Shown here: positions 18,597-56,396 of the stretch, one piece after another
Position numbering within the stretch: position 1 is the stretch's first letter
Layout of the letters: each line of letters begins with the position of its first letter
NCBI GenBank assembly: GCA_008704415.1
Contig: VXIS01000076.1
Location: forward strand, 92,729-156,728
Direction of reading: 5' to 3'
Source: Sphaerosporella brunnea
Lineage: Eukaryota; Ascomycota; Pezizomycetes; Pezizales; Pyronemataceae
Length of the DNA stretch: 64,000 nucleotides
Made by a program: the position numbers and the translations under genes
The notes under the pieces: generated by a model
Databases searched by the model: none
What the model saw: only the letters and a program-made list of their open reading frames with translations
Told to the model about the DNA's origin: nothing

Positions 18597-20486
18597 CTAG
18601 ACAACCGTTGCCTCGATGACGACCTTCACGGTGTCCGGCACATACTGATGGTGTGTGATGCCATCCAAATAGCTGACTGGGTGTCCTCCTCCGGTCAAGA
18701 AACACTGGCCACGGGTGAAGCGCAGTCCGTCCGTCGGCAACCCACAGAGCTTGACCACGTGCTCGCACAAGCTCTGGGCCGACCCGCGTAGGAGCACCCC
18801 ACGCTGCAAAGACGCTGTGTGCGTTTCCTCGTCGCCGGTCGCTTTGTGGAGCAACACCAGTTCGCACGGTATGTGGTCGGCGAGGGTAAGTTCGTTGATA
18901 CGCTGGGCGATGTGGAGCCTATTGGCGTCGACAAACGAGGCGGGACGGCTGCCACCGGGCGCGGTTCCTTGCTGGAGAGCGGCACCTGCTGTGGCCTGGG
19001 TGGGCAAACGCGGTTCTCGTGGGTCCTGGACCGCGCTGAACCATTGCTCCAGTGGCCCCGGTGGCTGCTGCGATGCTCCGGTTGGCTGCTGCAATCCACC
19101 AATTGGCTGCTGTAATCCCCCAGTTAGCTGCGGTAACCCTCCGACTAGCTGCAGTAATCCTGCGATCGACTGATCATTGGCATTTGGCGGGTGGTGGTTC
19201 GCAACAAGACGTAGCTGGCTGGCAGGTCCCTCGTCGTTCGACTGCTGGGTTAGGCCTGCGAGTGGTGAATCAGGTTGCGCATCCGCGAACGGTGTTTTGA
19301 CGTAGAACAACAGTTCCACCCCTCGGCCACAGCAAAAACCGGCAACCGTGTCACTCAGTGGCTCAATTATTCCAAACGGGACGCGGGGCGGCGCCACGTA
19401 GACGTAGTATTCGTCGTCCTTTCGATAAATGGCCGATCCGTCATCCATGATGCCGGCACAAAGTTCCCAGTGCGCACAAGACTCGTCGCCATCGGTGAAG
19501 GGGTGATCATTCGAGGGCTGCACCAACAGAACTCCGGTCTCGTTGGTCTTGCGTTGGGTCCTGACGAGGAAGGTAGCAGAGGTATTGCAGTCCGCGCAGT
19601 GACGATTCACGAGCTCTCTCTGTTCCGAGTCGCATGCAGCGAGGCTCGCCGGAATACTGCCTTTGCACTGCAGGATTGGATAGTGCGTGTAGGTGTTTAC
19701 AAACCCGCTGTGGAGCAGGCAAGACACCGTCTCTTCCCGAGTAACCGTAGGGGCACACCGCATAGCGGCCAACACATCTGGGATGCTGTCCCGGCAATCT
19801 GGGAATAGATTCAAGATCTTGCGCTGGCGGGCTTGAAGGGTCGCCGTGTCTCGTGCGCTATCGAGTTCCAACAACCCGCGTGCGACAGCCTGCGCTCGCT
19901 CTTCATCGACCTGTAGCAACCGCCGCAGTTCGGGCACGCAAAGGATGACCTGTATGAGTGCGTTTGACAATCTCTTGTGGTCGTGTGCCAATCCGATCTT
20001 GCACTGCACGATCTGCAGTGCTGGCTGCTGCAATTGCTCAAGTCCGGAAGAAAGCGCTATTTCCCCGCCTTCGTCGAAGGGCACGTTGACGTTACTGCGC
20101 GTCTGCACGGCGATGGCAGCATGTTGAAACAACTGGCAGCGTCTCAGGGTGTCGATGGTGCGCCGAAGCAGGAGCTTATCGGGGTCTTGCGGCAGAGTGC
20201 GCCGCTGTTTCGCGCAGGACATTGGGCCGTCGAGGGTATAGTCCGGATCGTCGATCAGTCCAGTGGAAACGAACGCCGAGCGAACGCAGACGTAGTAGTA
20301 GATGAACATGCTGAGGTTGGATAGTCAGCTAGCGGGGCGCGCAATCTCGGGGCTTGTGGCTTACTGTTGACTGTGGCGCGCCGCACTCACCCGTTCTCCC
20401 AGAAGAGCGACTTGCTTCTCCGTCGCCTTTGAGACATCATCTCGTTCAAGCAACTGCTGTGTTTGCTGATCTGCCGTAGTCGCCAT
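18597..20486 (-). CDS. USP-like pseudo-deubiquitinase family, copy 1
   Basis: Two exons: 20486-20365 (40 codons plus 2 nt) and 20310-18597, joined across a 54-nt intron (20364-20311, GTAAGC...CTGAC...CAG), giving 611 residues. The intron position and phase match the paralogs. Residues 1-41 form a Q/E-rich helix. From about residue 147 GLAHDHKRLSNALIQ..LCVPELRRLL follows the USP Cys box, but the catalytic Cys position is Arg154. CLLH (about 238) and CADC (279) resemble the USP zinc ribbon. VLLVQPS, the His-box equivalent DDGSA (His replaced by Asp) and LLFYV (about 374) follow. Family USPs hydrolyse ubiquitin conjugates; this one should bind without cleaving, if it binds at all. The tail has Q/G-rich repeats (LLQLVGG/LQQPTG) and a folded-looking C-terminal 110 residues ending KVVIEATVV, possibly ubiquitin-like. 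Gene call firm; USP relation inferred. Confidence 0.8.
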
Positions 20487-20615
20487 CGTGCGGAGTCGAG
20501 CGCTGTCTTGAGGTGTGTCGTGTGTGCCGTGGAGGGCGCGCAGATCGGGGAGTTAATGGGAGAAGTCACGTCGGCCGGGGCTTTTATGGGGAAGCCACGC
20601 GACCTTTAGGGTTAT
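20487..20615 (-). promoter_or_regulatory. candidate promoter of copy 1 with telobox
   Basis: Upstream of the copy-1 start the sense strand carries TAACCCTAA (about 20604-20612) and an ATAAAAG element near 20590. The AACCCTA core also appears upstream of the three paralogs. Function is inferred from position and sharing only. Confidence 0.35.
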
Positions 20616-20639
20616 GCTGCTTACAGGGCTCACCGTGTT

Positions 20640-20800
20640 GATCACTGCATGGGCTCTCACGCGAGCCATCGGGGGTGGCATATCGGATCACTCGCCGTCT
20701 TACGCGCCGCATAGGCTGTCACGCGAGCCATCGCCGGTGGCATATCGGATCACTCCGTGTCTTCCCCGCCGCATAGGCCGTCACGCGACTGATTGCGGGT
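20640..20800. repeat. 62-bp minisatellite fragment
   Basis: Two to three degenerate copies of the unit with CCGCATAGGCTGTCACGCGA and GGTGGCATATCGGATCACTC, the same as the large array at 27832-28436 and 31448-31830. Confidence 0.75.
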
Positions 20801-20829
20801 GGCAGAAGCTTGCGACGCGGCGGGGACCT

Positions 20830-21080
20830 TCGATGATGATATTTCCACAACAGAATTGCCCTCAACCAAGGTACGCCTGATGCTGCCTCTGGTTGTGCAC
20901 AGTATCGCATGTGAGTGATTGGTTATGTAGGGAATCTCGATGAGATAACAGGCGAGTCACGAGTTATGCACGGTATTACACGTCAGTGATTGTTTGTGCA
21001 CGGGATTACGGTCAGATTACATGCGAGTGAGTGGTTGTGTAGGCAATTACAGGCGAGTTACGTGCACCTGGCGCCTCGGA
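20830..21080. repeat. ATTGGTTGTG minisatellite, block 3, duplicated segment
   Basis: Shares long blocks with 33345-33530 (GATGATATTTC.ACAACAGAATTG; AACCAAGGTACGCCTGATG) and with 34560-34712 (GCACCTGGCGCCTCGGATA), so this is one copy of a larger duplicated segment. Confidence 0.75.
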
Positions 21081-21340
21081 TAGGTTCCGGGCGACCCTCT
21101 CAAGGTCTGGATGTCTGATAGGTATCTGGGTGCCGGCTATTCGGCGATTTTCTTGGTGCTGATAATGGGGTAACCTCCGAGCGCATCAAGTGACCAAAAC
21201 CCGGGCATTTGAGGATGGATATCAAAGCAGAGCTTGTTGGCGAGAGCAATTGTAAATTGTTCACGCCAATGCTGACCGCTTCTTGGGGTCGTTGTCTTCT
21301 TTAAACAGGGTAGATAGATACTTCAGGTGCCTGGCGGGCT
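21081..21340 (+). mobile_element. 3' fragment of the second hAT family
   Basis: Sequence from GTTCCGGGCGACCCTCTCAA onward is repeated at 37755-38010 and, more divergently, at 44165-44570. In those copies it leads to a CAGGGC..GGCAGCC inverted end. Here it is cut off by the CAGTGTTC hAT end at 21341. Confidence 0.55.
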
Positions 21341-21990
21341 CAGTGTTCCTCACAGTCTTGTCCGACCAGTCCTGAGCGCGGACCGAACCTGGACCACATC
21401 ATGCAGTCCAGTCCGAGAGGCTGCCCTGGACCAATCAGTCCTTGGACGGGTAAGCACTGGACGGCCTGCAGGCGATCCAGTTGACTGGATACTTCTAGCG
21501 GAGTAATGTATTACATCAGGATTTTCTATACAAAGTGCGTCCTCAAAACCCATAAACCAAACTGTGTCCTCCGCACGCTCCAAAAGTTCTTTTAAGACTG
21601 CGGAGGCATACATCTCTTGCATTTCCACCGGCTCTCTCCTTTAATCACAACTTCTTGGCCGTTTTCAGGCAGCCAAACATGACTTGAGCGGGCTCTTTTC
21701 TTGGCTTGGAACACTGCGGGTATTCTTTCTTGGGATGCGCCGGCTTCCGCTGGGTTGCTTTCAAGAGTAGGCGTAAACATGCTACTTGGAAGCGAGGATA
21801 ACTGGGAGGAAACCTCGCCTTGGATGTCGGGATAACCATGCAAGCTCTGGCATATGTCGTCGCTGTGGGACTGCTGCAAGCCGGAGGACATTACCATGAC
21901 GGAAGCGGCTGTCATGACAAGAGAATGAGAGTTTGTACTCAGGGTCCAATCTGGCACGTTGTGAGTGACTTACGGTTAGCTCGAATGAGT
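21341..21990 (-). mobile_element. internally deleted hAT with transposase N-terminus
   Basis: The terminus CAGTGTTCCTCAC lies at 21341. The minus-strand frame 21957-21592 encodes a transposase N-terminus ending ENGQEVVIKGESRWKCKRC, the start of a BED-type zinc finger (W..C..C), and then runs directly into 3' sequence. The catalytic centre is therefore deleted. The same S/Q-rich N-terminus occurs in the frame 30114-30338. The opposite inverted end was not found, so the 5' side is truncated near 21990. Confidence 0.65.
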
Positions 21991-23608
21991 TCTGTCAAGT
22001 GCTGATGCTGTTCGCAAGAACAGTCTTCTCGAGGTTTGGCCCAGTTTGATTGGCTGGATAGTCTCACGGTTCGCGCGGTTGAGGTGTCCACACACAGGGT
22101 TGTAGTCGATTGAGCGATCAAGGCGGCATCCTGCATAGACGGCGTTTCCACGCCTAGCCAACAGAGGACACAGTGCATCAAGCGCGATAACATTCCAAGA
22201 AGACTCTTCGCTGAAACCCGATACTCCCAATGACATCGGAGCGAATGAACTCCCACCGACAAGAATCGCATCTACAGCAACCGTTTTATATGTACAGTGG
22301 TAATCTTCAGGGTGAGGTAGCTTTTCCATCGGTTAGGATAGTGTAAATCAGAGGAGCTCGGGCCCTTGCAACCCTCGTAATCGCTCTGGGTTCATATAGT
22401 GTGGTCACCTGCTGCCGATGAAGCGCTCCAGTCAAGTGGTCATTAATATTCGCCATACAGCCACGGTAAAGGTCTTCTTTTTTTATTGTCGTGCTCATAA
22501 CCGATGACAAGCGCAACAAAACTTCAATGTGTTGGAATAGCAAAAGATCAACCAGCGCCCGAGGACCATCCGGGTAAGTAACGGAGTCTCTACGCTGTGG
22601 GATTGATCCCCAAGCTTGCTAGGCTTGTAACCCCGCGAAAGTCGGGTAACTACCGATGAACCTACCGATTTCACCGGGAATTGAACCGTCATCCTTCCGC
22701 GCTCATGGTTTCATATGGCGTGCGTCCATCCAACTACACCACGAGCATCTGGGCTGAAATTGTGTCGGTTAAGAAGATGATCTACCACAGCACTACCAAA
22801 TGCACGTGCAGCTATCACTCTATATATGGTTCTGCAGCAGCAGTGCCTGAGTAACCGCGCCAATCTTTGGACTTGGTGGTCACAACCTAGGTTTTCGGCG
22901 TCGCAGGAACAATGTTCAACTAATCTCACCGCCACCCAGGATCAATGCGACCGGTGCGGATAGGAGCGTGCGGCATGTTAGCGCTCGGCATCGGAGGAGC
23001 GCCAGCAAGGTCTACTCGCTGACGGAATGCACAGTTACATCATGCAGTTCCAGATGGGGAGCTTGTCAATCAAAGCGCGTTCAAGGGTCAGAGAATCTGC
23101 AGGCCCATGCCCCCCGCATGGCTGGCGAGCGGACGGCTAGTTTTGAGGGTGCGTGGCAACGCGATACACTTTGACACACAGTCCCACTCGAACGCCAAAA
23201 AGGATCATCTGATTCTTCCGACCGGACAGGTAGAAGTGCTGGTTAATATCAAAATCAAGCGAACCGTCCGTTTTGTTGATATCCACTCCTGTATAGCCAA
23301 ATCATGAGCGAAACCAGCGTTGTTGCCGCCAAGCGTTGCCAATCAACCAAACGGCCTGCGATTTGTAGATTGGGCAGGGTGCTCGCGCGCTGCTGCGGTG
23401 GAATACCTCCAGGTCCGCCGAAATTGTGTTTCAAGGTTCCGATGAAATAGTGGTGATTCCAGCGGTCCCTCGAGTGCGCGTCGAGTCCATACCTGCGGCT
23501 TTGGCCTGCATCTTGAGTTTGAGTCTGTGACGCTCGATATGTGAGGCCGGCTGGTATTCTATCAGTAGTGAGACGTTGAGCGCCAGCCGGGAGTGCATTG
23601 TCTCCAGA
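21991..23608. other. nothing recognised
   Basis: Short frames only. 23638-23255 minus (127 codons) is the longest and has no domain. A tRNA-like box at 22680-22770 fails pairing checks. Confidence 0.35.
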
Positions 23609-23725
23609 TAGTGATGGACACAAGCCAGCTTGAATCAATCCTTCAACGTCGGCTGGAGCTGGCTCGTCTCGTAGAGGGATCGCGTCCGAGCTTTGGGTGA
23701 GCTCGAGCTGCCGCTCGAGTTTCTC
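23609..23725. mobile_element. hAT end fragment, GAGCTCG-rich
   Basis: Begins TAGTGATGGACACAAGCC and runs into GAGCTCGAGCTGCCGCTCGA, like the MITE at 9142-9388. No partner end was seen. Confidence 0.5.
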
Positions 23726-24103
23726 TGCTTTACTACACTTTATGCTGGCGGACTCCGTTAACTCAAGATAATAGTTTTCAACGTATCTAAGAATGGCAAC
23801 CGTATGATGACTGGCTACAATTACGCAGCATGCCCATCGTTCTCACTGTCTGGGAGTAATTCGTGATTCGCATCTGGGGCCGGAACTTCAACTACACTGT
23901 CAATCGCGCCTATATCTTGCTTAACCGTTCACGTTTTCACTGCTCCAACTCACCCTGCCGCAAGCAGCTTTTGAGCAACAAGTAAGAGCTATCTGAGATC
24001 TCCAAGAGCCTGTTCGCTTTTTGATAGCACAATTCCCAGCTTGGGAGTGCTGCCCCGGCCGCCCCGTCGGAAAGTCGGTCCTCCCGAACGCCGCGGTTAC
24101 GCC

Positions 24104-24900
24104 CAGGGTTGTCAAAAGTCAGGGCAGTCCGGGTTCCAGCCAGGCCTGGACCGGACTGATTGAAACGGGCTTTTCAAATTTCGGCCCGTTTGGACCAGGC
24201 TTTTTCGATCGACACCCAGGCACCTGCGGGCATACGCCAGGTCCAAAAAGACCCGGCGCCCGGCAGGCCCCCCAGGCATGCTTTTGCTTTCACTTACATC
24301 AAGGAAAGGAAAATGAACATGAGATACAGATCCAACGTGAAGGCGCTCAATATACCCATCAATCTTCGCCGCCTGCAGTTCCGAGTCACCCGGCATACGA
24401 TGAATTTGGAACTCGCCCGATACACAAGACCTTCCCTCCTATCACTGAGGTACAACACTGAGTCGGAGTACTGCAGCGCTACAGTCATAGTGGTCATGGC
24501 CGCGCTTCTGCTACGCTCCTTCAGTTTCGGAATCTTTTGGGTTCTGAGCAAAACGTCCGCCGTATTCTTCCGCCCCAACTGCGACCAGTATATTCTAGGG
24601 ATTTATGAGCAAACCGCCTGGAGTTCTCCTCCGCATTCTTCCCACTCGTCTCCGAACTGTTAGTTTTGGGCTGGATCGACAAGTCAATGGATTGCGATCG
24701 ACGCTTTAGCTGCTGCTGAACGACCGACCGCCTTTAGTGGCCTTGACTTCGGCTCCTTGACCGAACCGATCTTGAGGATACCTGGCGCCCGCGGCACCTA
24801 TCAAATATCCAGACTTTTATTCCACCGGCCCGAACCTATCAGGCTTTCCGCATCATCGGCCCAACCTGACCCGCTTCGCGGGACCCGATTTGCCCGAGCG
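24104..24900 (+). mobile_element. second hAT family, 5' half
   Basis: Starts CAGGGTTGTCAAAAGTCAGG, which corresponds to the inverse of the right ends CAAGAGACCGGCCAGTC..GGCAGCCCTG of the elements ending at 38164 and 44769. The downstream part (24280-24900) is paralogous to 6605-7420 and contains a frame with SSPPAVPSHPAY. The 3' half is missing. A 5' and a 3' half in different places suggests recombination between copies. Confidence 0.5.
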
Positions 24901-25267
24901 GCTGGCCGGACTCCCTGGACTAGGCGAGAATGACCACGTTCTCGCGAGACTCGGCGAGACCTGGCGAAACTCGCATGATAAGAATCCTTCGTGCAAACCC
25001 AACTTATTCCAACACGTGGTGCTTGACGTCAGCCACTCTGGTGAAAGAAAACGGAGTTTTGGCGGAGCGTCAGCCCCTCGCGCCGTGACGACCCGTTTCA
25101 ACAATCCAATCGCAGACACTATCCCCGTACAAAAGCGATTTGTGTACACCCCGCGCCACAAAGAACACAAAAAACACTTCACCGCTCGTCCTCAACCTCC
25201 ACTGCATCGCTATGCACTGGCAACGACTGAATCAAACCCCAGAACCCCATCATTCCACCATGCGCGC

Positions 25268-25437
25268 TGTTGACGATAGGGTTTGCGCAGTGGGCACTAA
25301 GAACATAGGTGAAGAGATATATTGCAAGGTACGGAGCTAAGTGCGAGTTGCTGCTCCCTTAGGAGGCAGAAACGAGCACTAGTATATCCCTAGTTCATAC
25401 TCGGATCTACCAGAGAGTCATACTCTATGTCTCAACA
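25268..25437 (-). repeat. copia 3' LTR
   Basis: 170 bp, TG...CA ends within TGTTGA/TCAACA. Preceded on the minus strand by a polypurine tract and followed by the duplication CGCGC. Reads ATACTCTATG near one edge, as in the solo LTR at 31286. Confidence 0.9.
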
Positions 25438-27359: not shown

Positions 27360-27842
27360 TCAGCGTCCACACAACCAGAGTACAGAGATGGCGTACGCTG
27401 GAAGGTCTTTATACCTGCTCCACGTTGCCTGGAGCCTTTGCTCACCCTCTCGAACCCAACTCGCTTCGCAGTTACTCCCAACGTAAGACATCTTGATCTG
27501 GGGGTCCAAAAACAGACAAACATAGTATACCGACTGGGTTTTGGCTCGATAGTAGCGGGCCAGCCCTTCCCAGGCGAGATGCGATGCTTGTTTGAGCGCG
27601 GCATCGCACTTCGGTCCCAGGCAACAGGTCCGAGCACTACTCTCTGCCGCCCACTGCCAAGCTGGTTGCCGCCGGTGTTGGAGACTTAGAGATTGGTAAA
27701 TCTGATATCTTGGGTCGACCAATCGAGAATTGTCGAGACTGTCACGAGACCTGCGAGACATTTCGAGACCACACGATTCTCGCGAGACGGAGGCCCTCGG
27801 CGCGAATTCTCGTCTCGTGTGCAACATTGCAGATCGGGTCAC
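27360..27842 (-). pseudogene. hAT transposase RNase-H-fold fragment
   Basis: The 160-codon minus frame holds ASHLAWEGLARYYRAKTQSV, then YYVCLFLDPQIKMSYV and a W...W..RYKDLPA stretch. This is the GLxKYYxKT..YxxAxxLDPxxKxxY region that hAT transposases carry before the dimerisation domain. The frame is cut at a stop near 27360. The copia element inserted just downstream, at 27238. The N-terminal half gives no recognisable BED finger. Confidence 0.65.
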
Positions 27843-28436
27843 TCACCATGTTCCCCGACGCATAGGCCGTCACGCCGGTGCCACATCGATCACTCACGGG
27901 TATTCCCCGCCGCATAGGCTGTCACGCGACTCATCGCCGGTGGCATATCCGATCACTCACCGTGTTGCGCGGCACATAGTCTGTCACTCGGGTCATCGCC
28001 GGTGGCATATCGCATCACTCACCGTATTCCCCGCCGCATAGGCTGTCACGCGACTCATAGCCGGTGGCATTTCAGATCACTCACCGTCTTCCCCGCCGCA
28101 TAGGTTGTCACGCGAGTCAGCGCGGGTGGCATGTCGTATCACTCAGCGTCTTCCCCGCCGCATAGGTCGTCACGCGAACCATCGCCTGTGGCATGTCGGA
28201 TCACTCACCGTCTTCCCCGCCGCATAGGTTGTCACGCGAGTCAGCGCGGGTGGCATGTCGTATCACTCAGCGTCTTCCCCGCCGCATAGGCCGTCACGCG
28301 AACCATCGCCGGTGGCATGTCGGATCACTCACCGTCTTCCCCGCCGCATAGGTTGTCACGCGAGTCAGCGCGGGTGGCATGTCGTATCACTCAGCGTCTT
28401 CCCCGCCGCTTAGGCCGTCACGCGAACCATCGCCGG
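27832..28436. repeat. 62-bp minisatellite array, main block
   Basis: About ten units of roughly 60-62 bp, each with CCGCCGCATAGG, GTCACGCGA and GCCGGTGGCATRTCG followed by ATCACTCACCGTCTTCCC. Adjacent units at 28085-28430 alternate in pairs (GAGTCAGCGCGGGTGG against GAACCATCGCCGGTGG), indicating higher-order duplication of a dimer. The array resumes at 31246 after nested insertions. Confidence 0.85.
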
Positions 28437-31285: not shown

Positions 31286-31447
31286 TGTTGACGATGGGTT
31301 TCACGCAGTGGACACCAAGAACGTAGGTGAAGAGATATATTGCAAGGTGTAGAGCTAAGTGCGAGTTGCTGCTCCCTTATGACGCACAAACGAGCACCAA
31401 TATCACTAGTTCATACTCGGATCCACCTGAGAGTCATACTCTATGTC
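31286..31447 (-). repeat. solo copia LTR inside the minisatellite
   Basis: TGTTGACGATGG...ATACTCTATGTC matches the two LTRs of the copia element at 25268-27238 but lacks the last TCAACA bases, where it meets CGCCGCATAGG of the array. The remainder of a second insertion of the same family after LTR-LTR recombination or truncation. Confidence 0.85.
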
Positions 31448-31830
31448 CGCCGCATAGGCCATCACCCGAGTCATCGCCGGTGGTATATCGGATCACTCAG
31501 TGTCTTCCCCGCCGCATAGGCTGTCACGCGAGTCATTCCCGGCATGTCGGATAACTCACCAAGGCATAGGCCGTCACGCGAGTCATCCCCGGTGGAATGT
31601 CGGATCACTCACCGCCTTCCCCGCCGCTTAGGCTGTCACGCGAGCCATCGCCGGTGGCATATCGGATCACTCAGTGTCTTCCCCGCCGCATAGGCCGTCA
31701 CGCGAGCCATCGCCGGTGGCATATCGTATCACTCACCATGATCCCCGGCGCATGAGCTGTCACGCGACTGATCGCGGGTGGCATATCGTATCACTCACCG
31801 AGTGAAGCTGTCACGCGAGTCGAGCGCGCA
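31448..31830. repeat. 62-bp minisatellite array, distal block
   Basis: Six degenerate units continuing the array of 27832-28436, with shortened units near 31540-31570 and 31790-31820. Confidence 0.8.
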
Positions 31831-35586: not shown

Positions 35587-37748
35587 CTCACGCCGCCGAG
35601 CGCCAAGATCGCCACGTGACGAAGTTTTTCCGATTGGCTGAGGTAATACCCAGGCTGTGAAGTTGCGGTTTGCCGGTGGCGAACCTCAATCCAAACAACG
35701 AACCTCAACATTATGTCGCAATCGCAAAGACCGCTGCTTTCGCAAAGACCGCTGCTTCCAAAATGGTCGGTCACCCATGGGGACCTATTTTCACAAGCGG
35801 ACGCCGTCATGGGTGCGGCGCCAGCGGGTGTAACAATTATGCCTGACGTCCGTCCTCACCTGCCGCCGAGACAAAAAGAAGTTGAACCACCAACAGAGTT
35901 GGACGCAATGATAGAGCCGTACGGTCTGATAGAGCCGGTAACACGGACAATGGTGGACGGTGCTACAAGTGATGAAATGGTGGAACTGGGACAGCAAGGA
36001 AAACACGGACCATGGATTCCTCTTGCCCGCCGAGCCGCTATACTGACCTTGCATTGGTATGCCGGAAAGACCTGGTCAGAAATAGCGAGTTTTTTGAGTG
36101 TTTCTCCAGACACCGCACGTTGTATGGTCTCCAGAGCAAAAGTACAAGTCCCGGGTGGCAAATCCATTCAAATGCTGAAACAAACAGGAGCGAGCCACAA
36201 ATAAAAACGATTTCGAAGCGGTATTTGCTACGCTAGCGGATCAAAGCGAAAAAAACTGCGGTTCTGGACAAAGCATGATTTTTCCTGAGTGTTCAGAGGC
36301 CGGTGAACGTTTGATGAATCTCGCCAAGAGCGATATCGCCCACAGAGATATGCCTTGGCCGGAGGTAGCCAAAGAAGCTCATATTGAGGCTGCACGTTTG
36401 ACAATTGAACGGCTGTTCCACCAACACAATATCTTCCGCTATAAGTCTCGCTCCAAACCGCCATGCAGTGAAAAGACCCGGCACGCTCGTGTGCAGCTGG
36501 CAGAGCTAGGACTCACTATCGATCAACGGCGTATTGTGTTCACTGACGAAACGTGGCATGAATTCAACTCCTCCCGTCGCCAAACCCATCAAACGCGGTC
36601 AAAAGGCGAAAATGCCTACGATGTAGCAAGAACTAAAGAAGACAACAAGACCACCATTCGAGTCATGTTTGCAGGTGCCATTAACCTCTTACTGGGTACC
36701 GGCTGTGGTTATATTTATCCAAAATCCACCGCAGCCGATAAAAAGCACCAGCAAGAGGTGCAACAGGAGGTACAGAAAGAACGACAGGAAAAGTCCCGAA
36801 AACGCATCCGCCTTGCTGAGATACCGGGCACAGATGAGGACAAAGAGGTGGCACGCTTTAACAGAGATATAGACCGCCAAAATGCGGAAGAAGGACGGAC
36901 CGGTCGCCACAAGAAGAGGCACCGTAAACCAGCACAGGTATTCAAAGTGGAGGAGATCAAAGTGACGACCAAGGGTGGAATAAATTGGGTCCAATACCGC
37001 GAGCAGTTCCTCCAACCTTTCCTGTACCAGTGGATTACACAAAAGCTGCAGCCGTTGTTGTTGGCGGAAACTGGCGATGATACAGTTTGGTTGGTACTCT
37101 TACTGGTTTTTTGCCACCCAACAAAATCTTAACAAGATCATCAGGTTAATTGAAGACAATGCACCGTGTCATACAGCAGCCCAAAAGGTCGATGAGGAGG
37201 AGAGGGAGCGGCTTCATATCCGCACATTTTCCTTCCCAGCAAGCTCTCCTGACCTTAACAAAATTGAGCGGTGCTGGGATTATGAAAAGGCCGGTGACTC
37301 TGCACCCTTTCTATTCTATTTTCACTGACGGACACATGACTCCATTGCGGAGTATCAATTTGTTGGTGCCAGCCAGGAATCTATTGAAAGTGCGAAGGTA
37401 CCCAACCCTCACCCTTGCTCATCCTCGCCCCCCGACGACCCTCCCACTACATTGGAATACCACTGACGAGCCAGACCACGTTGCTACGGACATGGGACGA
37501 GTTCCCTAAAGAATTGGTGGAGCGGGAATGCCGAGACTTTCACTTAAAGTGTCAGTCTGTGTTAGATCATGATGGACGCAACAATTTCAACGGTTGACCA
37601 CTACAAATCTCATCCCCGCTCTGGTGCTTCACCTTTGACCGCGTCTGTGCCCTTTTCGCTCGCGTTTGTGCTCTTTTTGCTTGCGTTCTTCTACCAGCCA
37701 ATCGGAAAAACTTCGTCACGTGGCGATCTTGGCGCTCGGCGGCGTGAG
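35587..37748 (+). mobile_element. Tc1/mariner element, perfect 54-bp TIRs, TA target
   Basis: The 54 bp at 35587-35640 (CTCACGCCGCCGAGCGCCAA...CGATTGGCTG) are exactly inverted at 37695-37748, and TA flanks both ends (35585-35586 and 37749-37750). TA target sites and a DDE transposase place it in Tc1/mariner. The perfect TIRs suggest fairly recent activity or TIR homogenisation, yet the transposase has frameshifts. It interrupts the 3' piece of the second hAT family that resumes at 37755. Confidence 0.92.
35713..37328 (+). pseudogene. Tc1/mariner transposase with two frameshifts
   Basis: Three consecutive frames build one transposase. 35713-36204 has a helix-turn-helix-like segment (RRAAILTLHWYAGKTWSEIA..LSVSPDTARCMVSRAK). 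36275-37132 carries the first catalytic Asp in VFTDETWHEF and a long lysine/arginine-rich insertion. 37077-37328 carries the second Asp in LIEDNAPCH and the Glu in SPDLNKIERCW. Single-base shifts near 36180-36205 and 37090-37130 would reconcile the frames. 36 residues separate the second Asp and the Glu, unlike the usual 34 or 35. A normal transposase cuts and rejoins at the TIRs; this copy cannot be translated whole. Confidence 0.85.
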
Positions 37749-39730: not shown

Positions 39731-41654
39731 ATGGAAAGTAAAGTCGCCGACGCACCAGGATCGTGACGCCGCATCGACAGCTGGCAGTAAGCCCCCCCTC
39801 CACCTAACCTAACCCCGGCTAAAAACCACCGCAGCATGGTCCTCTTCTTCCACGTGAGCCTGCGTTCAGCTTTAATCTACGTCGGCGAAATGAACTATCC
39901 GGCTTACACACTCGACCTCGTTGGCAACGCGCCGAAGTTGCAGCAGTGCCTCGCCCCCCAGCCCAACACGCAGGTCCTCGCGGCGACATTCACCACCCTT
40001 CGGGGATGCGCAGTCTTCAAGGCAGCGTATGCGAGTCTTTCTACTCGTCGCATCAAGATTCAGTTCGATGACACCCGCACAATCGAAGTGTCCTGCGCCC
40101 TCGTCGAGGCTACCCGCCCTGCTGCTGCCCCTGCGGCTCCCCTTCGCCTGCTTCGTTGCCAGATCGGGTAATAACATAGGCCTCCACCTGGTGCTTGGTT
40201 GCTGAGAGTCATTGCCTGATGGTTGGTTGAAGACAGTCATTGCCTGGTGATTGGTTGCCGAGAGGTATTGTCTAGGAGGCCTCCCACCACGCTATGGAGT
40301 ATCTCTCATCGCCTTGCTCCCTAAAATGCCATATTCAATCGAGTCGCATAACGGGCCGCCATGTCCTATCCACAACCCCGATGAAGAAGCAGTGCACCGG
40401 CGACGATTCCGAAATAGCGCCCTCCCGCAACGCTGCCCCCGCAACTACCCCGTCCGAGACGCTCTCTTGATTATGGCCATGGCAACCAAGATCAAGAAAG
40501 CGACACAGACGACGGACGAGGAGATAGACTCCATTCAACAACATCTCAACCAACACCAAGAAATCGTACTCGGACGACTGGCGCACGCCGATATGATACA
40601 AAGAACATTAAGCTGAATCAGAGAGCGGCCAAGCTGGGATCAGGGGGTGGCCGAACTCGCGGAGATCAAACAGGCCGTGCTTTGGCTGACCGATCCTGAG
40701 CGCCTTCGCCAGGAGGCGGAGAAGCTTGAGGAGGAAGACAGTGCTGGCGGGTCCACCCGTCCCTTCAATCATGCCATGTTCTTTCGCAACAAGGCACTAG
40801 GTGTCAGGACTGGCATTGAACCTTCCATTCTCGAGGAACAGCACGCAGCCGAGCTGCAGAAGATCCGCCAGTCTCGCCGCCCGACCCAAGAGGCAGCCTC
40901 TCAAGCTGTCCGTCCTCGGGAGTCAGCCACAGTGGACGTTAAAAAAATCATGGAAGGAATCATGATGGACTTGGAGAAGCTTCAGGCTCGGCTGCTGCAG
41001 GCTGGGGGTGAGAGAGTTGATCTCGGCGCTTAACGACCTGAATGATCTCGATGCGGTGCGTGACACTGCAGGTCAAGCAAAAGCTTCTGTTGTCTCTATT
41101 CGCCGACTGCGAGGACAATGCCGTGAACGTCTTGCTCAGCCTGAGTTGCAAGAACTTAATGAACACCTCGACGAAGACGTGGTGCGAAGGCAGGATCCGA
41201 ATTGACAGCTCGCAGACGGTGCTGATCTGCTCTGACTCGGTCCACAAAGCCATCGAGAACGCCAGCAACCAGTTTGAGACCTCTGCTAACAGTCCTTGTG
41301 CGACGTGTGGAACGGTCACCACGCAGACGGTGACCACGACGAACGAGTTCAACAGCCACGGAATTCTTCTTGTTCAGCCTTCCGCCGCGCATCGCATCGT
41401 TGCCGATGTTGATGAGGAATTTGGTGATTGGCCTGGTCTTCTTCCTGGCGGGAGAGCTTTTTTCCGTGACGATGACGCATTCCAGCACGATGAAAACCTC
41501 TGCAGAAGCGCTGTGCCAGAACCAGACTCCGATTCTGTTCTACGTACGGGCCGTGCCGGACGCCGTGGAGGATGGAGGACAAGACAACGCTGGTCCGGCT
41601 GGTGACTTAATCACTTCATACAAGCGGTTTGAGAAGTTCATACACGCGCTTTGA
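39731..41654 (+). pseudogene. USP-like pseudo-deubiquitinase family, copy 4 (broken)
   Basis: Exon 1 (39731-39786) starts MESKVADAPGS and hits an in-frame TGA at 39764-39766; it is also shorter than in the paralogs. The intron 39787-39834 (GTAAGC...CAG, 48 nt) and its phase 2 are preserved. Exon 2 opens MVLFFHVSLRSALIYVG and is intact to LRLLRCQIG (about 40168). The Cys-box segment is then missing, replaced by about 0.85 kb holding a coiled-coil ORF. The family sequence resumes at about 41000 (NDLNDLDAVRDT) and, after a frameshift, keeps CATC, GILLVQPS and PGGRAFFRDDDAF (41042-41500). A further frameshift leads to PILFYVRAVPD (about 41540). A dead gene, most similar to copy 2. Confidence 0.85.
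40473..41033 (+). pseudogene. coiled-coil ORF inside copy 4, one in-frame stop
   Basis: One frame runs from ATG 40473 (second ATG at 40479, MATKIKKATQTTDEEIDSIQ) to 41033, interrupted only by TGA at 40614-40616; about 185 codons. The first part is a charged heptad-like helix (IQQHLNQHQEIVLGRLAHAD). The second has VAELAEIKQAVLWLTDPERL, then EAEKLEEEDS and IMMDLEKLQARLLQ. It ends where the USP-like frame resumes, and ARLLQAGGER partly mimics the lost RRLLQ segment. I do not recognise the family. It may be an inserted retrocopy or gene fragment. Confidence 0.45.
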
Positions 41655-46553: not shown

Positions 46554-47819
46554 CTAAGGAGCCTGGTCACGATCCAGCACGGTAAGCACATAAAATAAAA
46601 GCAGGGGTGTATCGTTGTCGCATAATCTTTCGATGGAGTAGTTGAAGGACTGTGAAATCAGAGCACACGGCAGACCCGCACGTGGGCGGTAGAGGTGGAA
46701 CCCTTCTCCGTCGCTGAAAAAGGCTCTTCCCCCCGGGAGAAGGCCAGCGCAAAGCTTCCATTCGCCATATTTGCCACATTCTTCGTCGACTTCGGTAAGA
46801 GGATGACCAGCGGAAGGCTCAACAAGCAGAATTCCAGATTCCGAGTTGAACATGTTTGCGATATTAACCGTCTGCGTCGTCACGCTTCTGCAGGTGTCGC
46901 ACTGACGGTTGGCAGTCTGATCGGATTCCGCACTGGCATTGGCGATGACCCGATTGACCGTGTCCGTGCAGGTCAGCGTCATCTTGGCGCTGACGTCCCT
47001 GACACAGCCTTTGTGCAGCACGCAATGTGTGGTCGTCATGGTGGACACCGAGATCTTGCAGAACAGATTCATAAGGACGTCAAGCGCATTGTCAATGGTA
47101 TCGTCGAACAGCGCCAACAGCATCGTCTGTATCTTGTGTATCTCCATGGTATTGCGAGCGGCATCCAAATCCTCCAGGTATCGGAGAGTCGCGATATTCC
47201 GTTTGCGGTTGGCGTGAAGCAGGCGTCGTAACACGGGAACGCAGAACAGCACCTGCATCAGTGCGTTCGTGTTCGCTTTGGCCGCGTGGCCGAGCCCAAT
47301 TTGACACGACATCAGGCGTAAACGACGAGGGACAGCGGCAGCCCGACAATCATGAACGAGGGAGCATGACACATCGACAGTGCGTGTGTCGTCGAAGACA
47401 ATCGGCACCGACATGCGACGCTCGACACTGGTGGCTGCGGCTCGGAACACGGCGCATGCACGCAACTGGGTGAAGGTTGCCGCGAGTAGGTGCCGGTCCG
47501 GGAAAGGCGGCAGGCATGGGTTCAACTCCGGTGCGTGTCCATTAACGTCGAGAGAGTATGCAGGGTCGTTTATCAAGCCAACATACAGCAGCGCCGAGCG
47601 CACACTGACGTAGTATAAAAGGACCATACTGCGGTGGTTTTTAGCGGTCAGGATTCAATGGTCGGGGGAGGGAGGGGGGTTATACTGTTCGTCTGTTCGC
47701 ATGGCTCCGATCCGGTTGCTCAGGGTTTCAATCTGCTCTCCCAACGCGGTGTTGATATTGCCTTGCTGCATGAGAAGTTGCACCTCGTGATCTTGTTCGG
47801 TCGCCGTCTTAGCGTCCAT
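46554..47819 (-). CDS. USP-like pseudo-deubiquitinase family, copy 2
   Basis: Exon 1 47819-47686 (44 codons plus 2 nt, MDAKTATEQDHEVQLLMQQG...), intron 47685-47629 (57 nt, GTATAA...CTGAC...CAG), exon 2 47628-46554; 402 residues. This is the minimal member: it stops 12 residues after the LLLFYV strand and has no tail. The Cys box GLGHAAKANTNALMQVLFCV has Ala163 at the catalytic Cys position. CVLH and CDTC form the zinc-ribbon pairs. GILLVEPS follows, and the His-box equivalent is PGGRAFF with no His. Overall length equals a bare USP core (about 350 residues). It shares upstream repeats with copy 4. Expected to be soluble, with no signal peptide or membrane segment. Gene call strong; ubiquitin-related function inferred. 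Confidence 0.82.
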
Positions 47820-47824
47820 TTTCG

Positions 47825-49480: not shown

Positions 49481-51146
49481 CAGTAGAATCTCTATATAAG
49501 AATAGGGTCGGGGCCGCAGGGACGTATTCTTATAAAGTGAATATTCTGAAATACAGTGTGGCTTGACACGGGTGATCGTTCATGATTGCGATCCACGGGG
49601 TGCCGGAAGTCTACAAATAACACCAACCAAAGGCCGGGTAACTGGCGGGACAAACGTTTGCAATCATTTGAAACACACCTGTCGTCTGTACCATCAATCC
49701 GCCCGCCCAACATGGGACGCCTCATATCACAGAACGGCCCGTCTAAAACGACGATGTGGAGGAGAAGGCAAGCGCAGGCGGACTCCGATGCAATTTCCAA
49801 CCACCCCTGGACGCCCCCAAGCTCCAAGCGGGCCGTCAAGAGCAACCATCTGGAGACGAAAAAAAGGCGCAAGAAGCCGCCATGGCCAGTGCGCAAACAA
49901 ATGCAGACCCCACGCCACCTGTACACATCCCCACCCCATCAACCCCCGCGCCACCCAGCACCCAAACTGGACGAGCTCAAGCCTCAAGCCCCAACAAGTC
50001 CACGGGGTGATATCCCAGGAGCAGGATTTTAAGGAGCAGAAGACCGAGCTGGAAGAAGCTATCATTACTCGTGGACATCTTTGCCTATTTCTCCCTAAAT
50101 TTCACCCGGAAACCAATCCTATCGAGAGTTATTGGGGGACTACAAAGGTGTTCACACGGAAAAATTGTCGCTATAGTCTTTCAGCGTTACGCGACACGAT
50201 CCCTAAAGCTCGAGCATCCGTCCCCCGCACTCAGATTCTGAAATATTTTCAAAAGGGGGAGAGAATGTGTAATCTTTATGCCTCTGGGGAGCGCTATGGC
50301 ACTGAATCCTTTCAAAACAAAGCCTATAAGAGCCACCGCCGTGTTTTTGTAGGCGCTGCATCCGGGTAAGCCATTGGGGCGACGTGGGGACGGGGGACGG
50401 GGCGCTTGTTTGAACTTTGAACGCAGGCTGAAGCACTGGCACTGGCACTGGCACTTGGCGCTTTTTTTTTTTTTTTTTATTCCGATACCCAATACCGCCT
50501 CTATGTAGTTTCGCTTCTATATATCTTGTCGACTCGCGCGACGGCGGCGTATCTGAATCTCCGGTCGTCACTCCTAGGCGGGTAGTGTTTCAAATGTCCC
50601 ACCAGTTACCCGGCGTTTGGTTGGTGTTATTCGTACACTCCCGGCACCGTATAAGGAAACCAAAATCTGGTGTGTTTTGACGGCTCGTGCCGGACAAGAA
50701 ACGTTATGGGAGAGTATTCATACTGTTCACTAACTTTACTGCCAGCCGTTTGAAATCGCGATAAAAAAAAAACAAACCGTGAGTCTGCTCCAACCGACCC
50801 GTAACCCCCAATTCCAGAGAAACGTATCCCTAAAGCTGATCATTCTCGCCATCATATGCATCCTCCATATACATAAAACCGTGATTAGAAAGAGGCAGCG
50901 AGGGGGTTTGAGGTGCGCATACCAAAATGTCAGAACTTGGAGAGCCGGAGCGGTCTGCTCCCATCCCCTCCCGGAGGTCCTCCATTTTTATAAGCATACC
51001 GATCAAGATTTTCTCGCCATTTCTAAGAATATTCTGATAAAATTTTTATTCTTTTTTCCCATACAAAATCGGTCGGGACCGGCCACCCATATTCTTATAG
51101 AGTGCATATTCTTATATGATCGTATTCTTATATAGCGACTCTACTG
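49481..51146 (+). mobile_element. Tc1/mariner-like element, TA target
   Basis: CAGTAGAATCTCTATATAAG at the left and the inverse of CAGTAGAGTCGCTATATAAG at the right form the imperfect terminal repeats, each flanked by TA (49479-49480 and 51147-51148). Further ATTCTTATA words lie inside both ends. Carries a truncated DDE gene (49990-50369). 50461-50480 is a poly-T run. Confidence 0.8.
49990..50369 (+). pseudogene. DDE endonuclease C-terminus in the Tc1-like element
   Basis: QKTELEEAIITRGHLCLFLP runs into KFHPETNPIESYWG, holding the final catalytic Glu. It then has the fungal DDE tail RYSLSALRDTIPKARASVPR, FQKGERMCNLYASG and a KSHRRVF end. This tail is typical of the fungal IS630/Tc1-like transposases. 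The open frame extends upstream to 49563, but that part is not transposase-like and both catalytic Asp residues are absent, so the gene lost its 5' two-thirds. Confidence 0.75.
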
Positions 51147-51189
51147 TATTTGGTTCCGCGGACCATTTAATTCGGTCAGCCCACCGGGA

Positions 51190-51353
51190 ATTTGTATGTC
51201 CCGACATCTCGCAGCTCAAGTCCAAAGCTCGAGCCGGAGCTCGGCTCACGTCGCAACCGGCTCGAGCAAGCTCGGCTCACGTGGCAACCGGCTCGAGCCA
51301 GCTCGGCTCATCCGCGATTCGGCTGAGACCGGCTCGGCTTATGTCCACCACTA
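51190..51353. mobile_element. hAT end fragment, GAGCTCG-rich
   Basis: Ends GGCTTATGTCCACCACTA at 51353, the inverse of a TAGTGGTGGACATAAGCC hAT terminus. The interior repeats GGCTCGAGC and GCAACCGGCTCGAGC. No left end recognised. Confidence 0.5.
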
Positions 51354-51681
51354 AAGCCCGGCAGCCAGCCCGACGCGGGCTCCAGCCCAACCAGGCCGCC
51401 CGGTTTTTCGATCAGCCCCACGGGCGGGCTGGCTGCTAGGAACACGGACTACACGTCTCATTTTCGACCCGCTGTCAACAAATCTCCGCTTTCCACCCTC
51501 CGCCGTTCCTATACCTCCAAGTCTCTACCAACAAGATGTCGGAATACGTGAACCGTGCCGAAGAATATCGCTCCAAGCTTAGGGTTGTAGAACGATTTTG
51601 GCGTCGTATTGTAGACAGCCGGCATTGCTATAAGCGGTCCCATGCGTTCACGGCCGCGGAAACCTAAACCTCACCGCACGC

Positions 51682-52025
51682 GCCTTCGTGGCGCAATGGT
51701 TAGCTGACCTGTCTCCGCAGTCCGGACCTTAAGCTCAATGCGGCAGACGCCGCGTTCGAGCCCGGCTGGAATCCCCTGCGGAGACAGTATTGAGGGGCCC
51801 CGTCACGTGTGTGCCGGGGTGAGCAGGGTTGTCCGACAGCGGGATCTGCGCTGATTAGTCAGTCAGAGACGCTGGTTTGTAATGCCCCGGTTACCATTCA
51901 CTGCAATTACGGTCTGAGACAGGAGGCTGCGAGGCCGCAGTGGAGCTGGTAACCCCGGTAACGGGTATACATAGATGTGCAACCTTTTTTTATTATTACC
52001 ATTATTATCATCATTATTGGTATTA
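51682..52025 (+). mobile_element. tRNA-derived SINE candidate
   Basis: TGGCGCAATGGTTAGC (51689) matches a pol III A box and GTTCGAGCC (51754) a B box, 64 bp apart. The tRNA-like head does not pair well as a cloverleaf (T-stem and acceptor fail), so it is not a live tRNA gene. A unique body of about 200 bp follows, then a T-run (about 51984) and an ATT/ATC trinucleotide tail (51991-52025). Head, body and simple-repeat tail is the standard SINE layout. No flanking duplication was identified. Confidence 0.5.
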
Positions 52026-52600
52026 TTTCCCGATATGAGTGACAAATCGGTGCCTTGGGTATGCATATTGCACCGTATTGGGCGGGGTGAAAATTTGGTA
52101 CTCGTTGAAACGAAAATCGAATTTCGACAGATAATCTCGTGTCGAATTTCGTCTTCAAATCTCGTTCCCAAATCTAGTCTCACGGCAACGCATCATTGAC
52201 CCTCTCGGTTGCAAAGGTGACAGCTCAAGACGGGCCAGGTATCTGAAACAGTTGTGGGTGTCAATCACCTCCGTTTTCACTTCCCGAGGCCCGTTCGTTG
52301 CTGAACTGTTGCCACTATGTTTTACCGAAGCTTATTGACAACCTTACGATGCGGTCATCTGGAATTGAGTAGAAGGTCCGCGGTGTAGAGAGCTTGCGAT
52401 GTGACGTCGACCATCAAAACAATCGACGCCGGCCTTGTGATGGACACAGGCTGAGCCGGCTCGATCCGCCTAAATTTTGAGCTCGAGCTGGCTCGAGCAA
52501 CGGTGAGTCTTGCTCGAGCTGTGCTGCAGCTTTTACTTAGAATTTTGTTGGCGCCAAGCGCCGCATCAACCCCCATCACAACCCATCTCAACCCACCCTA
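52026..52600. other. intergenic, with hAT end fragment 52430-52520
   Basis: TTGTGATGGACACAGGCTGA and GAGCTCGAGCTGGCTCGAGC mark another fragment of the GAGCTCG-rich hAT group. The remainder is unassigned. 52555-52660 is pyrimidine-rich and leads into the start of the split gene. Confidence 0.4.
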
Positions 52601-52663
52601 CCCGTCATACTGTATCTTCCACAACACCCACCCAGCGCGCGGCAGGACAACGAAAATCTCACC

Positions 52664-54108
52664 ATGTCGACGGTCCCTATCAGTGGCTCCGGCTACGATG
52701 ATCGAATCAATGCTCCTCCTGATGAAGAAGATCAAGTTATGCCGGCGTTCTACAAGAAAATAAGTGTACAATGCCCTATCATACAAAAATACGGTGATTC
52801 ACGTTTTAAAAAACGTGAGCCCAAGCCGGAAACGCAGTTCACGTTTCTCGGAGATGTGAATTACGTTATGGTTCTGGTGAGCGTCGGAGAAACGTGAATC
52901 ACGCCAAATAGAAAGACGTGGCTCGCGTCAACAGCCGTTGAGCTTGAACGGGGGGTGGCGGTTAATGAGATGGAGTGATATGCAGTGAATCACAACCACC
53001 ACCCCAAAAATACCATCCCCATAACCAGCACCCCAACCGTGCTATCACTATCAAGTTAAAGGTATCTCAAGCTCTCATAAAACAATCAAGCTAATGTTGC
53101 TGCAGCGAAGTGAAAGCAATACTGGTATGTGCACTAAGCTGAAGGTCCATGGTACCCTCCCACGAACAGGGCTACTTGCTGCAAGCTGGTGTGGAGAGAA
53201 ATGCACCCGACAGCGTACCAGCACTGATGACCCGCAGAGTAAAAGGTTCATGGTACTCCTTCGAATGGTGCTACTTGCTGTAAGCGGTGGTTCGGTTTGT
53301 GTGGAGGACACGTACACTCTTCCGCATAGTACTGCATTCGCCAGACTCTCTTGGTCGCAAATCTCCGATTGCTACCTGAGGCATGGATGGCTGGGTCTCG
53401 GATGGATAAGGGTAGGCTCTGGGACGATGGGATAGTGTCCGTAGGTGTTTCAGCGAGGTAGACTACACAACGCAGTTACACCGGCAAATAAAATAGTGCA
53501 CTGGAAAGCTAATGCTTCATTTGAGAAACTCACGTCATTTGCAGAGACGCAACTCACGTCTGATCAGACGTGACTGACATTGTACCCATCACGTTTCCGG
53601 TCACGTTTCAATCACGTTCTCGATCACATTTTTATCACGTTTTCTGTCAAGCTTTGATATCACTTGAGTGACGTTTGAATTCACGCCAATTTCGACTCAC
53701 GTCATTCTCTGAAATAACGTGAGTCAAGATATTTTTGTATGATAGGGATGGGGTAAAACCAATAATAATCCTCAGCTCACAGTGTCCATCGACTCGCAGA
53801 AATACCGGAAACACTTTTTTGTCCAGAGACTGCAATCCAAGTATCGGCAGCATTATGAGCTTCGTGCTCAGCATCATGTGTCCTGCCCCAAACGTTACCG
53901 AATCGTGCACACTTATTTGTGGCTTAAGCACTGGCTAAAGCAAACCGAAGTCAAACCGTGGGAAAAGTGGGGTTATGACGACCCTGATGATGTAAAGGCG
54001 GCAGCTGGAGAACTATGGACATTGCGGGTATATCTGGTGAGGGTGCGGCGGGTGATAGCGATCACGACGCCCCGGTGGGTGCAGATTCCGCCATTGAGGC
54101 TGCTCTGA
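52664..54108 (+). pseudogene. unknown gene split by a 974-bp transposon
   Basis: ATG at 52664 in good context (CTCACCATGT) opens MSTVPISGSGYDDRINAPPD and an acidic stretch, then VMPAFYKKISVQ. The element 52774-53747 interrupts here. Ignoring it and one copy of the ATG duplication, the same frame continues without a stop through SIDSQKYRKHFFVQRLQSKY and HTYLWLKHWLKQTEVKPWEK to 54108, about 155 codons in all. The part after GELWTLRVYL may be past a donor site (GTGAGG, 54038), with EGAAGDSDHDAPVGADSAIE in the next frame. I do not recognise the family. The restored frame shows it was coding when hit. Confidence 0.65.
52774..53747. mobile_element. novel-looking DNA transposon, 3-bp TSD ATG, CACGT-rich ends
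   Basis: Terminal repeats CCCTATCATACAAAAATA and its inverse TATTTTTGTATGATAGGG, flanked by ATG on both sides (52771-52773 and 53748-53750). Removing it restores a reading frame, which fixes the boundaries. Both subterminal regions carry many CACGTY/RACGTG words in both orientations (about twelve in 53520-53725), likely transposase binding sites. The interior shows repeats (GGTTCATGGTACTCC against GGTCCATGGTACCCTCC) and no transposase. The 3-bp duplication is not TWA, so Harbinger is not an obvious home. Confidence 0.85.
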
Positions 54109-54745
54109 CCTCGTCAGGGCTGTTGGTCCTTTCATATTGATCTGCACAATCCAGGCATCGCAAATATTCTCGGACAGCGTTGTAAGCTATGTTTCCACCT
54201 GCGCCAGCGTCTGCGCACGCGCTGATCAGCTCGGCATGCATGCCAGTGCAGTTGATTAGTGAGCTAACAACCAGGATATTCACACCGCGTGCCCAAGAGC
54301 CTGTTACCTGTAGATTGTCGTGCAACCAAGCGATTGAGAATGGGGTTGTTAAGAGAGCGTTGTGGGTGGGCGTGCGAGCGTTGTAGTTGCGGGGGTGGGC
54401 GCGGGCTGCGAGCACCAGATTTGCGTTCTCACAGAGCACAATCGGGGCCAATCAGAAGTTTATCCGCACTCCGGTTCGTTTTGACTTTCTGGCAAACGGA
54501 CGTCACTTCGGGGGCTATTGACACCCACTAGTAGTTGACAAGGAAAGGATACAATCAAAACGGACTCGTGGTATATTCTCAGCCCTTTAGTGCACGGATA
54601 CTATGCCCCCGGTTTCATCTATTCCGCACAAAAAATAGAGAGGCTCTGCAACAACAGTTGCGCTGTATGATTGCTTGTCCCACCTTTCGAATCCCTATTC
54701 AGCCCCAAAACGTTCTGCTTTTGACTTGTACCATCGCGTGTGATC
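54109..54745. other. intergenic or downstream exon region
   Basis: The minus frame 54451-54062 (129 codons; ISACADAGAGGNIAYNAVRE) is protein-like and overlaps the split gene antisense. No domain known. Confidence 0.3.
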
Positions 54746-56396
54746 TTAGACGCCGGGGTCGGCATCATCGGCTGCACGACCTGATTGTTTAAATAGTCGC
54801 GCTCGGAATTTGCGTAAGTAGTCTTTAAAGACCGCCCGTCGCCGTTGTAGACGCAGCATAGGTTTTGTTTGCGCCCCTATCATCTCTTCTCGTAACTCCG
54901 ACTCGAGCATGCGCCCCTGTCTGAGCGGCTCGATCTCGTGGGCCTGTTGCTGCTCGTGCTGTCTGAGCGGCTCGATCTCGTGGACCGGTTGCTGCTGCTG
55001 CTGTCTGAGCGGCTCGATCTCGTGGACCGGTTGCTGCTCAAGCTGTCTGAGCGGTTCGATGTCCCTCGCTGGTCCCGGCTCCGGGATTGCTAAACCCAGG
55101 TGTCCGAACGGCAGCTGCTGGGCCTGGTTTTCGACGCAATCATGCAAGCCGTCTGCAACTCCAGTGCAGATGTAGAACAAAATGTGGACGGTTTGGTTCG
55201 CACAATAGTCTTCCACCGAGTAGCCTGTAAGCGGCGTGATGAAAGCGCACGGCAGGCGCTGCTGCGGGTGATATTGGTAAAAGTGGTCCCCGTCGCGGAA
55301 GAAGGCCCTGCCGTCGGCGAGAATGCCGCCGCAGAGATCCCACTCGCCATATTCCTCGTCCAGCTCCGTGACCGGATAGGCGGGCGACGGCTGAACCAGC
55401 AAAATTCCATCTTGAAGGTTGAAGATGTGTTTTATCGTGACGGTACGTGTCGTCGTGTCGTTGCATCGCGCACAATGGCCGTTTGAAGAAGTCTCCGATT
55501 CTTCCTGCGCATCTGCGATCGCCTGGTGCACGGGAACGTCGCACTTCAGGACCATCTGGGCTTCGGATGCGATTTCGTATCCCTTGTGAAGCGCACACCA
55601 AGTCGTTGTTTTCCTTCGCACAGTGTCCGCGCACTGCATGCCGACCAAAACGTCCGGCACAGCGTCGCAACAATCTGCGAACAAGTGCAACAAGTTGCGC
55701 TGGAGCTGTGCCAATGCCACCGTGTCCCGTGCGGCATCGAGTGCGGCCAATTGGCTCCGCACTTCTATCGGTCGTGGTTGGTCCACGGGCAGCAACCTTC
55801 TCAGGGTCGGAACGCAAAACAGAAGCTGGAGCAGGGCGTTGGTGTATTTCTTTTCGTCGTAGCCCAGCCCGATCGTGCACCACCTCAGCTGCAGAGGCTG
55901 AGGTTGAAGAGGCGCAACCCGGGGCCATGCCACCAGCGCGCAAGAAACCTCAACCATCCTTCGGTGATCGAAGACAATCCTCGGCGGGCGACGGCTGTTG
56001 ATGGAGACCACCGCAGCTTTAAACACCGCGCATTTCCGCAAGGTCGCGATCGTATCCGACAACAACTGCATGTCTGGCTGGGCAACCAAAGTTACAGGTT
56101 GCATGTCGCAGGTCATCGGACCGTCGAAAGTGTAAGTCGCGTCGTCTATCAGGCCGACGTGGACAAAGGCGGACCGCACGCACACGTAGTAGTATAGAGT
56201 CATGCTGTGTTCCCTGTGTCAGCGGTGGTAGGCAGAATCGGGGCCGGGGGGGGGGGGGGGGCGCGTACTGTGCGGTCGTGCGGGCTGCCGCAACGCGATC
56301 GCGGAGGTAGTAGATCTGCTCTGGTGGGGCGGCTGCGACGTCGTCCTGCTCCAGCAGTTTTTGGGCTTGGAGATCCTTCTGGGTCCACGAGGCCAT
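54746..56396 (-). CDS. USP-like pseudo-deubiquitinase family, copy 3
   Basis: Exon 1 56396-56269 (42 codons plus 2 nt, MASWTQKDLQAQKLLEQDDV...), intron 56268-56205 (64 nt, GTACGC, an internal run of about 16 C, CTGAC, CAG), exon 2 56204-54746; 528 residues. The Cys box GLGYDEKKYTNALLQLLFCV has Lys162 in place of Cys. CALH and CARC supply the zinc pairs. GILLVQPS follows; the His-box equivalent is ADGRAFFRDGDHFYQY, where the USP pattern GHY.AYVR.GD.WYKF is recognisable but the catalytic His is Asp. HILFYI closes the core. The tail contains four 14-residue repeats (EIEPLRQ..QQPVH) and ends basic and helical (RRRAVFKDYLRKFRARLF). Exon 1 and its intron would be missed by ORF-only annotation. Gene call strong; activity inferred absent. 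Confidence 0.82.

Follow-up and report, generated by a model that had tools for sequence, protein, structure and literature searches.

A multicopy family of proteins in Sphaerosporella brunnea with a predicted ubiquitin-specific protease fold and a substituted catalytic triad

Introduction

In ubiquitin-specific proteases (USPs) the characteristic motifs follow each other in the order Cys-box helix, zinc ribbon, His-strand and terminal LLFY strand. Pseudo-deubiquitinases (pseudo-DUBs) with scaffold or regulatory roles are also known (PMC10919355). The present work concerns four related genes (copies 1–4) located in a stretch of 64,000 nucleotides, C615:92729-156728, which is referred to below as the window. 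It belongs to the 50.6 Mb assembly of Sphaerosporella brunnea, the source indicated by protein look-ups, a Pezizales ascomycete described as ectomycorrhizal (PMC6908789). The four genes are probably part of a multigene pseudo-deubiquitinase family, seen so far in one species. By its predicted fold the family is a multicopy pseudo-USP family; it is not classed as an active USP because the triad is absent by alignment. Judged by titles and the openings of abstracts, none of the papers found on pseudo-DUBs, on USP expansion in fungi and on deubiquitinases of Pezizomycetes, in a partial library, describes such a family.

Results

Gene structures in the window

Related genes are found at all four places, copies 1, 3 and 4 on the minus strand and copy 2 on the plus strand. 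Their parts are the following.

18597..20486, minus strand: copy 1, deposited protein P0007, 611 aa
20486-20365 (exon 1), 20364-20311 (GT-AG intron), 20310-18597 (exon 2), minus strand: exon structure of copy 1
19293..20027, minus strand: putative USP-like core of copy 1; it begins shortly ahead of the Cys box, whose Cys position holds R, and extends as far as the LLFYV strand
18600..18881, minus strand: C-terminal domain of copy 1, tentative ubiquitin-like (beta-grasp) topology, weak matches, predicted local distance difference test (pLDDT) of the model 51
39731..41654, plus strand: copy 2, broken; its N-terminal part reaches about 40168
46554..47819, minus strand: copy 3, deposited protein P0001, 402 aa, without C-terminal extension
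47819-47686 (exon 1), 47685-47629 (intron), 47628-46554 (exon 2), minus strand: exon structure of copy 3
46581..47330, minus strand: putative USP-like core of copy 3, with A in place of the Cys and R in place of the His
54746..56396, minus strand: copy 4, its exon bounds being set after those of copies 1 and 3
56396-56269 (exon 1), 56268-56205 (intron), 56204-54746 (exon 2), minus strand: exon structure of copy 4
55163..55903, minus strand: putative USP-like core of copy 4, with K in place of the Cys and R in place of the His

The core is open throughout in copies 1, 3 and 4. The spliced frame of copy 1 has the same length of 611 codons as the deposited P0007 and the spliced translation of copy 3 agrees with P0001; no deposited protein for copy 4 turned up in protein database searches. 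In copy 2 an unrelated stretch of about 830 bases (about 40169-40995) occupies the place where the Cys-box region is expected, and the C-terminal part beyond it lies in shifted frames. Copies 1, 3 and 4 and the loci L010, L011, L015 and L016 all have a first exon ~40 codons long, followed by an intron (GT donor, AG acceptor) at the same site.

Some family copies have an added variable Gln/Pro-rich linker and a C-terminal domain. In L010, which is the deposited protein P0006, a DIHRQAAQ-containing unit is repeated six times in the linker that joins the core to the C-terminal domain (region C615:57526-58557, which lies outside the window). The weak matches of P0006 to T3SS_HrpK1, TCAD3, Hac8_like_N and O-acetyl-ADP-ribose deacetylase fall in Gln-rich repeats below the curated cut-offs and were rejected, as were the weak matches, also under the curated cut-off, of P0002 to PA1414_fam and of a copy 2 piece to Allantoicase and Fer4_21.

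Family size and distribution

Search of the genome with the copy 3 core gave at least 67 exon-wise matches, the best paralogue having an E-value of 9.8e-115. The identity to copy 3 is 36–56% and the motifs are common to the family copies; with such values the relatedness of the copies is not due to chance. After grouping of matches lying within 2.5 kb on one strand, the 67 matches form 39 loci on 24 contigs, with seven loci on contig C615. The core (~350 residues) is uninterrupted in seven loci (L009, L010, L011, L013, L015, L016 and L020), three of them within the window.

The sequence-only reading of this DNA had placed four related copies with shared motifs in USP order at these positions. 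Sequence comparison bears out both statements, but the family proved to be much larger than four, and the 402-residue protein attributed to copy 2 is in fact that of copy 3, copy 2 being no intact gene.

Searches of ~5.8 billion proteins returned seven proteins, all from S. brunnea. A distant relative could escape these searches, since they require shared 5-residue words and the two of them with alignments scored only ~8,000 candidates each. Viral contigs were scanned as well, and none of the 22 pattern matches was confirmed as a relative of the family.

Predicted fold

A template-free model of copy 3 was compared with known structures by Foldseek and by VIA-align. In this check, which the sequence-only reading had suggested and which came out in its favor, USP structures occupy all 50 rows listed by each program. 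The order of motifs, the zinc ribbon and the terminal strand agree with USP topology. At the profile level the UCH profile has no match to the core at E ≤ 10; the same profile gives 30 exon-wise matches elsewhere in the S. brunnea genome and 0 in the window. The sole PDB row for the core, an aldehyde dehydrogenase with E 1.3, was rejected as irrelevant.

Catalytic positions and zinc ribbon

The triad columns were set by motifs and predicted strands, not by coordinate superposition: KxxTNAL.Q was anchored on the Cys box, G-R-A-F-F on the GHY strand and F.xY.P on WYxFDD. The USP motifs used as reference are visible in the genome's own USPs. Residue readings drew on 24 of the 39 loci (30 entries, L009-L038, six of which are second matches to a locus already counted); the misaligned L035 was left out of all three counts given here.

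The Cys position could be read in 15 loci and is occupied by Lys (5 loci, that of L012 lying in a shifted frame), Ala (3), Cys (3), Glu (2) and Arg (1), L018 being unclear. At the His position none of the 20 readable loci has His; Arg is found in 15, Lys in 2, and Ser, Gln and Ile in one each, the window copies having Arg (copies 2, 3 and 4) or Ser (copy 1). The Asp position in the seven intact copies is taken by His, Arg, Glu or Val. As His is absent from all readable loci, Asp from the intact copies and Cys from most loci, the core is not expected to cleave in the manner of a USP. The zinc ligands (CxxH and CxxC), as read from the sequence, are present in all seven intact copies, and 13 of the 17 loci that could be read have the full set; in the copy 3 core they are C, H, C and C.

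These readings modify the catalytic part of the sequence-only reading. Its Arg in copy 1 is correct, but the order Arg, Ala, Lys for copies 1–3 with a deletion in copy 4 is not: Ala belongs to copy 3, Lys to copy 4, and it is copy 2 that has no box. The His position is indeed devoid of His in either alignment, though not as the Asp or Gly claimed, and the loss of the triad Asp holds for the seven intact copies. The designation of the copies as pseudo-deubiquitinases stands with respect to the predicted USP fold and, in the strand-anchored alignment, to triad substitution. Three loci outside the window have Cys at the catalytic position.

Selection and turnover

The ratio of nonsynonymous to synonymous substitution rates (dN/dS) was estimated by the Nei-Gojobori method for the 9 pairs with dS < 1 among 10 loci; for the remaining pairs dS exceeds 1 or cannot be computed. 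The three intact-copy pairs, which have members in common, give 0.39, 0.33 and 0.31 with 95% bootstrap intervals of 0.29–0.54, 0.24–0.43 and 0.19–0.51, respectively. The six pairs including partial copies range from 0.21 to 0.61, one interval extending to 1.11. The intact members are constrained by purifying selection, and decay has affected many other loci.

The youngest estimated pair, in which both members are intact, has dS of 0.14, followed by 0.36. Outside this set, copy 2 and L011 match over 390 bases at 93.8% identity, which indicates duplication also among copies that are now broken. As is evident from the young intact pair, the closely similar broken pieces and the many broken loci, the family both gains and loses copies. 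The label "expanding", used in the sequence-only reading, is neither shown nor excluded by one young intact pair and many broken loci.

Surroundings of the window copies

Pfam scan of the surroundings covered 24 further pieces, which correspond to 22 distinct open reading frames (ORFs), and none of these 22 passed the curated cut-off. Rfam scan of the whole window gave no match. Two regions on the plus strand contain ORFs with weak transposase-like or helix-turn-helix (HTH) matches.

35647-37132, plus strand: transposase-like/HTH ORFs, Tc3-type HTH, below cut-off
49536-50369, plus strand: ORF weakly similar to the transposase DDE_3 within 49536-50366

In the former region the ORF 36275-37129 (+) has a weak match to HTH_Tnp_Tc3_2 and the ORF 35713-36201 (+) weak matches to Sigma70_r4_2 and HTH_23, all under the cut-off. 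The ORF 36275-37129 has 22 matches in the genome including itself; the best other one is 98% identical and contains an internal stop. Related short tandem or dispersed repeats, ~75–89% alike, are located at 27829-28436, 31447-31800 and also 20629-20804, and recur in the window.

Discussion

We propose the following picture. An intact gene comprises a short first exon, for which helices are modelled, the conserved intron and a stretch without a confident model, followed by a compact domain of predicted USP fold, ~240 residues long, in which the zinc ribbon and the core strands are kept. In some copies the variable linker then leads to a C-terminal domain, maybe a ubiquitin-like one. As the most likely, though speculative, mode of action, ubiquitin or a ubiquitin-like modifier (UBL) would be held by the surface of palm and zinc finger but left uncut. 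The proteins would then serve as readers, shields or competitors, the linker and the C-terminal domain supplying additional contacts. The family turns over via duplication and decay, its intact members being kept under purifying selection. A bolder version, which we regard as quite unlikely, is that a non-catalytic USP domain partly fused to a ubiquitin-like tail constitutes a fast-turnover intracellular set for capture of ubiquitin or UBLs, with dynamics like those of immune or self-recognition families, e.g. decoys against ubiquitin-pathway factors of parasites or regulators of symbiosis.

A number of observations weigh against the assignment of the family to pseudo-USPs. The USP fold comes from the model of a single paralogue, copy 3, with a mean pLDDT of 61.6 and a predicted template modelling score (pTM) of 0.54, and the five models span 43 to 62. 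The template modelling scores (TM-scores) of the Foldseek matches are 0.30–0.40 by query length and 0.25–0.50 by target length, with root-mean-square deviations of 6.5–11.4 Å. No USP match for the core was found in Pfam, NCBIfam or PDB sequences, and hhalign of the family against the genome's own USPs (including the Sad1-like L006) gave P = 0.048 and 0.075, which is not significant; the profile-level UCH match anticipated by the sequence-only reading is therefore missing. The ubiquitin-like identity of the modelled C-terminal domain is weak. Cys does stand at the catalytic position in L011, L023 and L031. Apart from the zinc ligands, all seven intact copies have Cys at 103, 153, 235, 265 and 381 (P0001 numbers), and His 320 is kept in six of the seven. 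Cys 174 is likewise kept in six of seven. L011, L023 and L031 also group together by DNA similarity (not from a tree), and their Cys may be a relic or a coincidence; the His position, legible among the three in L011, has Arg there.

The conserved Cys residues and the nearly invariant His 320 outside the zinc ligands leave room for an unusual or rearranged active site. An active protease which uses another Cys and His, or the canonical-place Cys of the three loci just named, would have precedents: USP53/54 were labelled dead and are in fact active (PMC12037411), and USP52 reportedly has activity even though it lacks the standard triad (PMC10919355; PMC5876348). Nevertheless, we consider such a protease very unlikely, as USP53/54 retain Cys and His whereas no readable locus of the family has His at its position, and Cys 174 is replaced by Arg in L011 and His 320 by Tyr in copy 4. 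The shallow alignment, the modest confidence, the unevenness of the five models and the lack of a sequence-level match to USPs would all fit a modelling artefact concealing a different fold; this is still less probable in our view.

No more probable than such an artefact is a mobile element or a decaying remnant that happens to encode a protein. The scatter of the family over many contigs, its numerous broken loci, the transposase-like ORFs in the window and the partly common flanking DNA (84–88% near L009, L027, L032 and L034) agree with this explanation. On the other hand, the closest intact pair (L015/L016) has only 2.06 kb in common around the gene, no inverted repeats were seen at the ends of this shared unit, the intact genes retain the intron, and their dN/dS is well below 1. 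A USP-fold pseudoenzyme with a role unrelated to ubiquitin, the fold being a structural scaffold only as proposed for some pseudo-DUBs, is unlikely too, though less so than the other explanations: scaffold and allosteric roles are documented among pseudo-DUBs (PMC10919355) and the variable Gln/Pro-rich linkers fit it. The conservation of the zinc-ribbon ligands speaks against a mere scaffold, but it may serve folding alone and does not discriminate.

If the pseudo-deubiquitinase assignment is correct, a multicopy family, seen in one species, with a lost triad and under purifying selection would offer a set of naturally occurring USP domains that do not cut. Such a set would let one ask what the USP fold does besides cutting. 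The family would also exemplify USP-fold proteins invisible to profile searches.

Comparison with known systems

With canonical USPs (C19, Pfam UCH PF00443) the family shares the predicted fold and the order of Cys-box helix, zinc ribbon, His-strand and LLFY strand. In contrast to them, it lacks the triad His in the readable loci, the Asp in the intact copies and, mostly, the Cys; it also gives no UCH profile match, and its core is compact (~240 residues). USP39/Sad1 is a single conserved gene, and to our knowledge the same is true of the pseudo-USPs compared here. L006 (C323:203590-204555), which has a UCH match, is presumably the local Sad1/USP39; read by eye, it has D where the catalytic Cys would stand.

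USP39/Sad1 resembles the family in having a USP domain without catalytic Cys and His, but there Cys is replaced by Asp, an N-terminal ZnF domain is present and the role is in splicing (PMC10919355). USP52/PAN2 also has no standard triad; unlike the family, it is described as a deadenylase subunit with a nuclease domain and is reported to be an active DUB (PMC10919355). USP53 and USP54 were long annotated as inactive USPs, but differ from the family in that they retain Cys and His and act on K63 chains (PMC12037411). USPL1 differs in being an active SUMO protease (PMC10919355). Mammalian USP17/DUB3 are multicopy USP genes and in this respect are like the family described here; unlike it, they are described as deubiquitinating enzymes in tandemly repeated sequence (PMC2874809).
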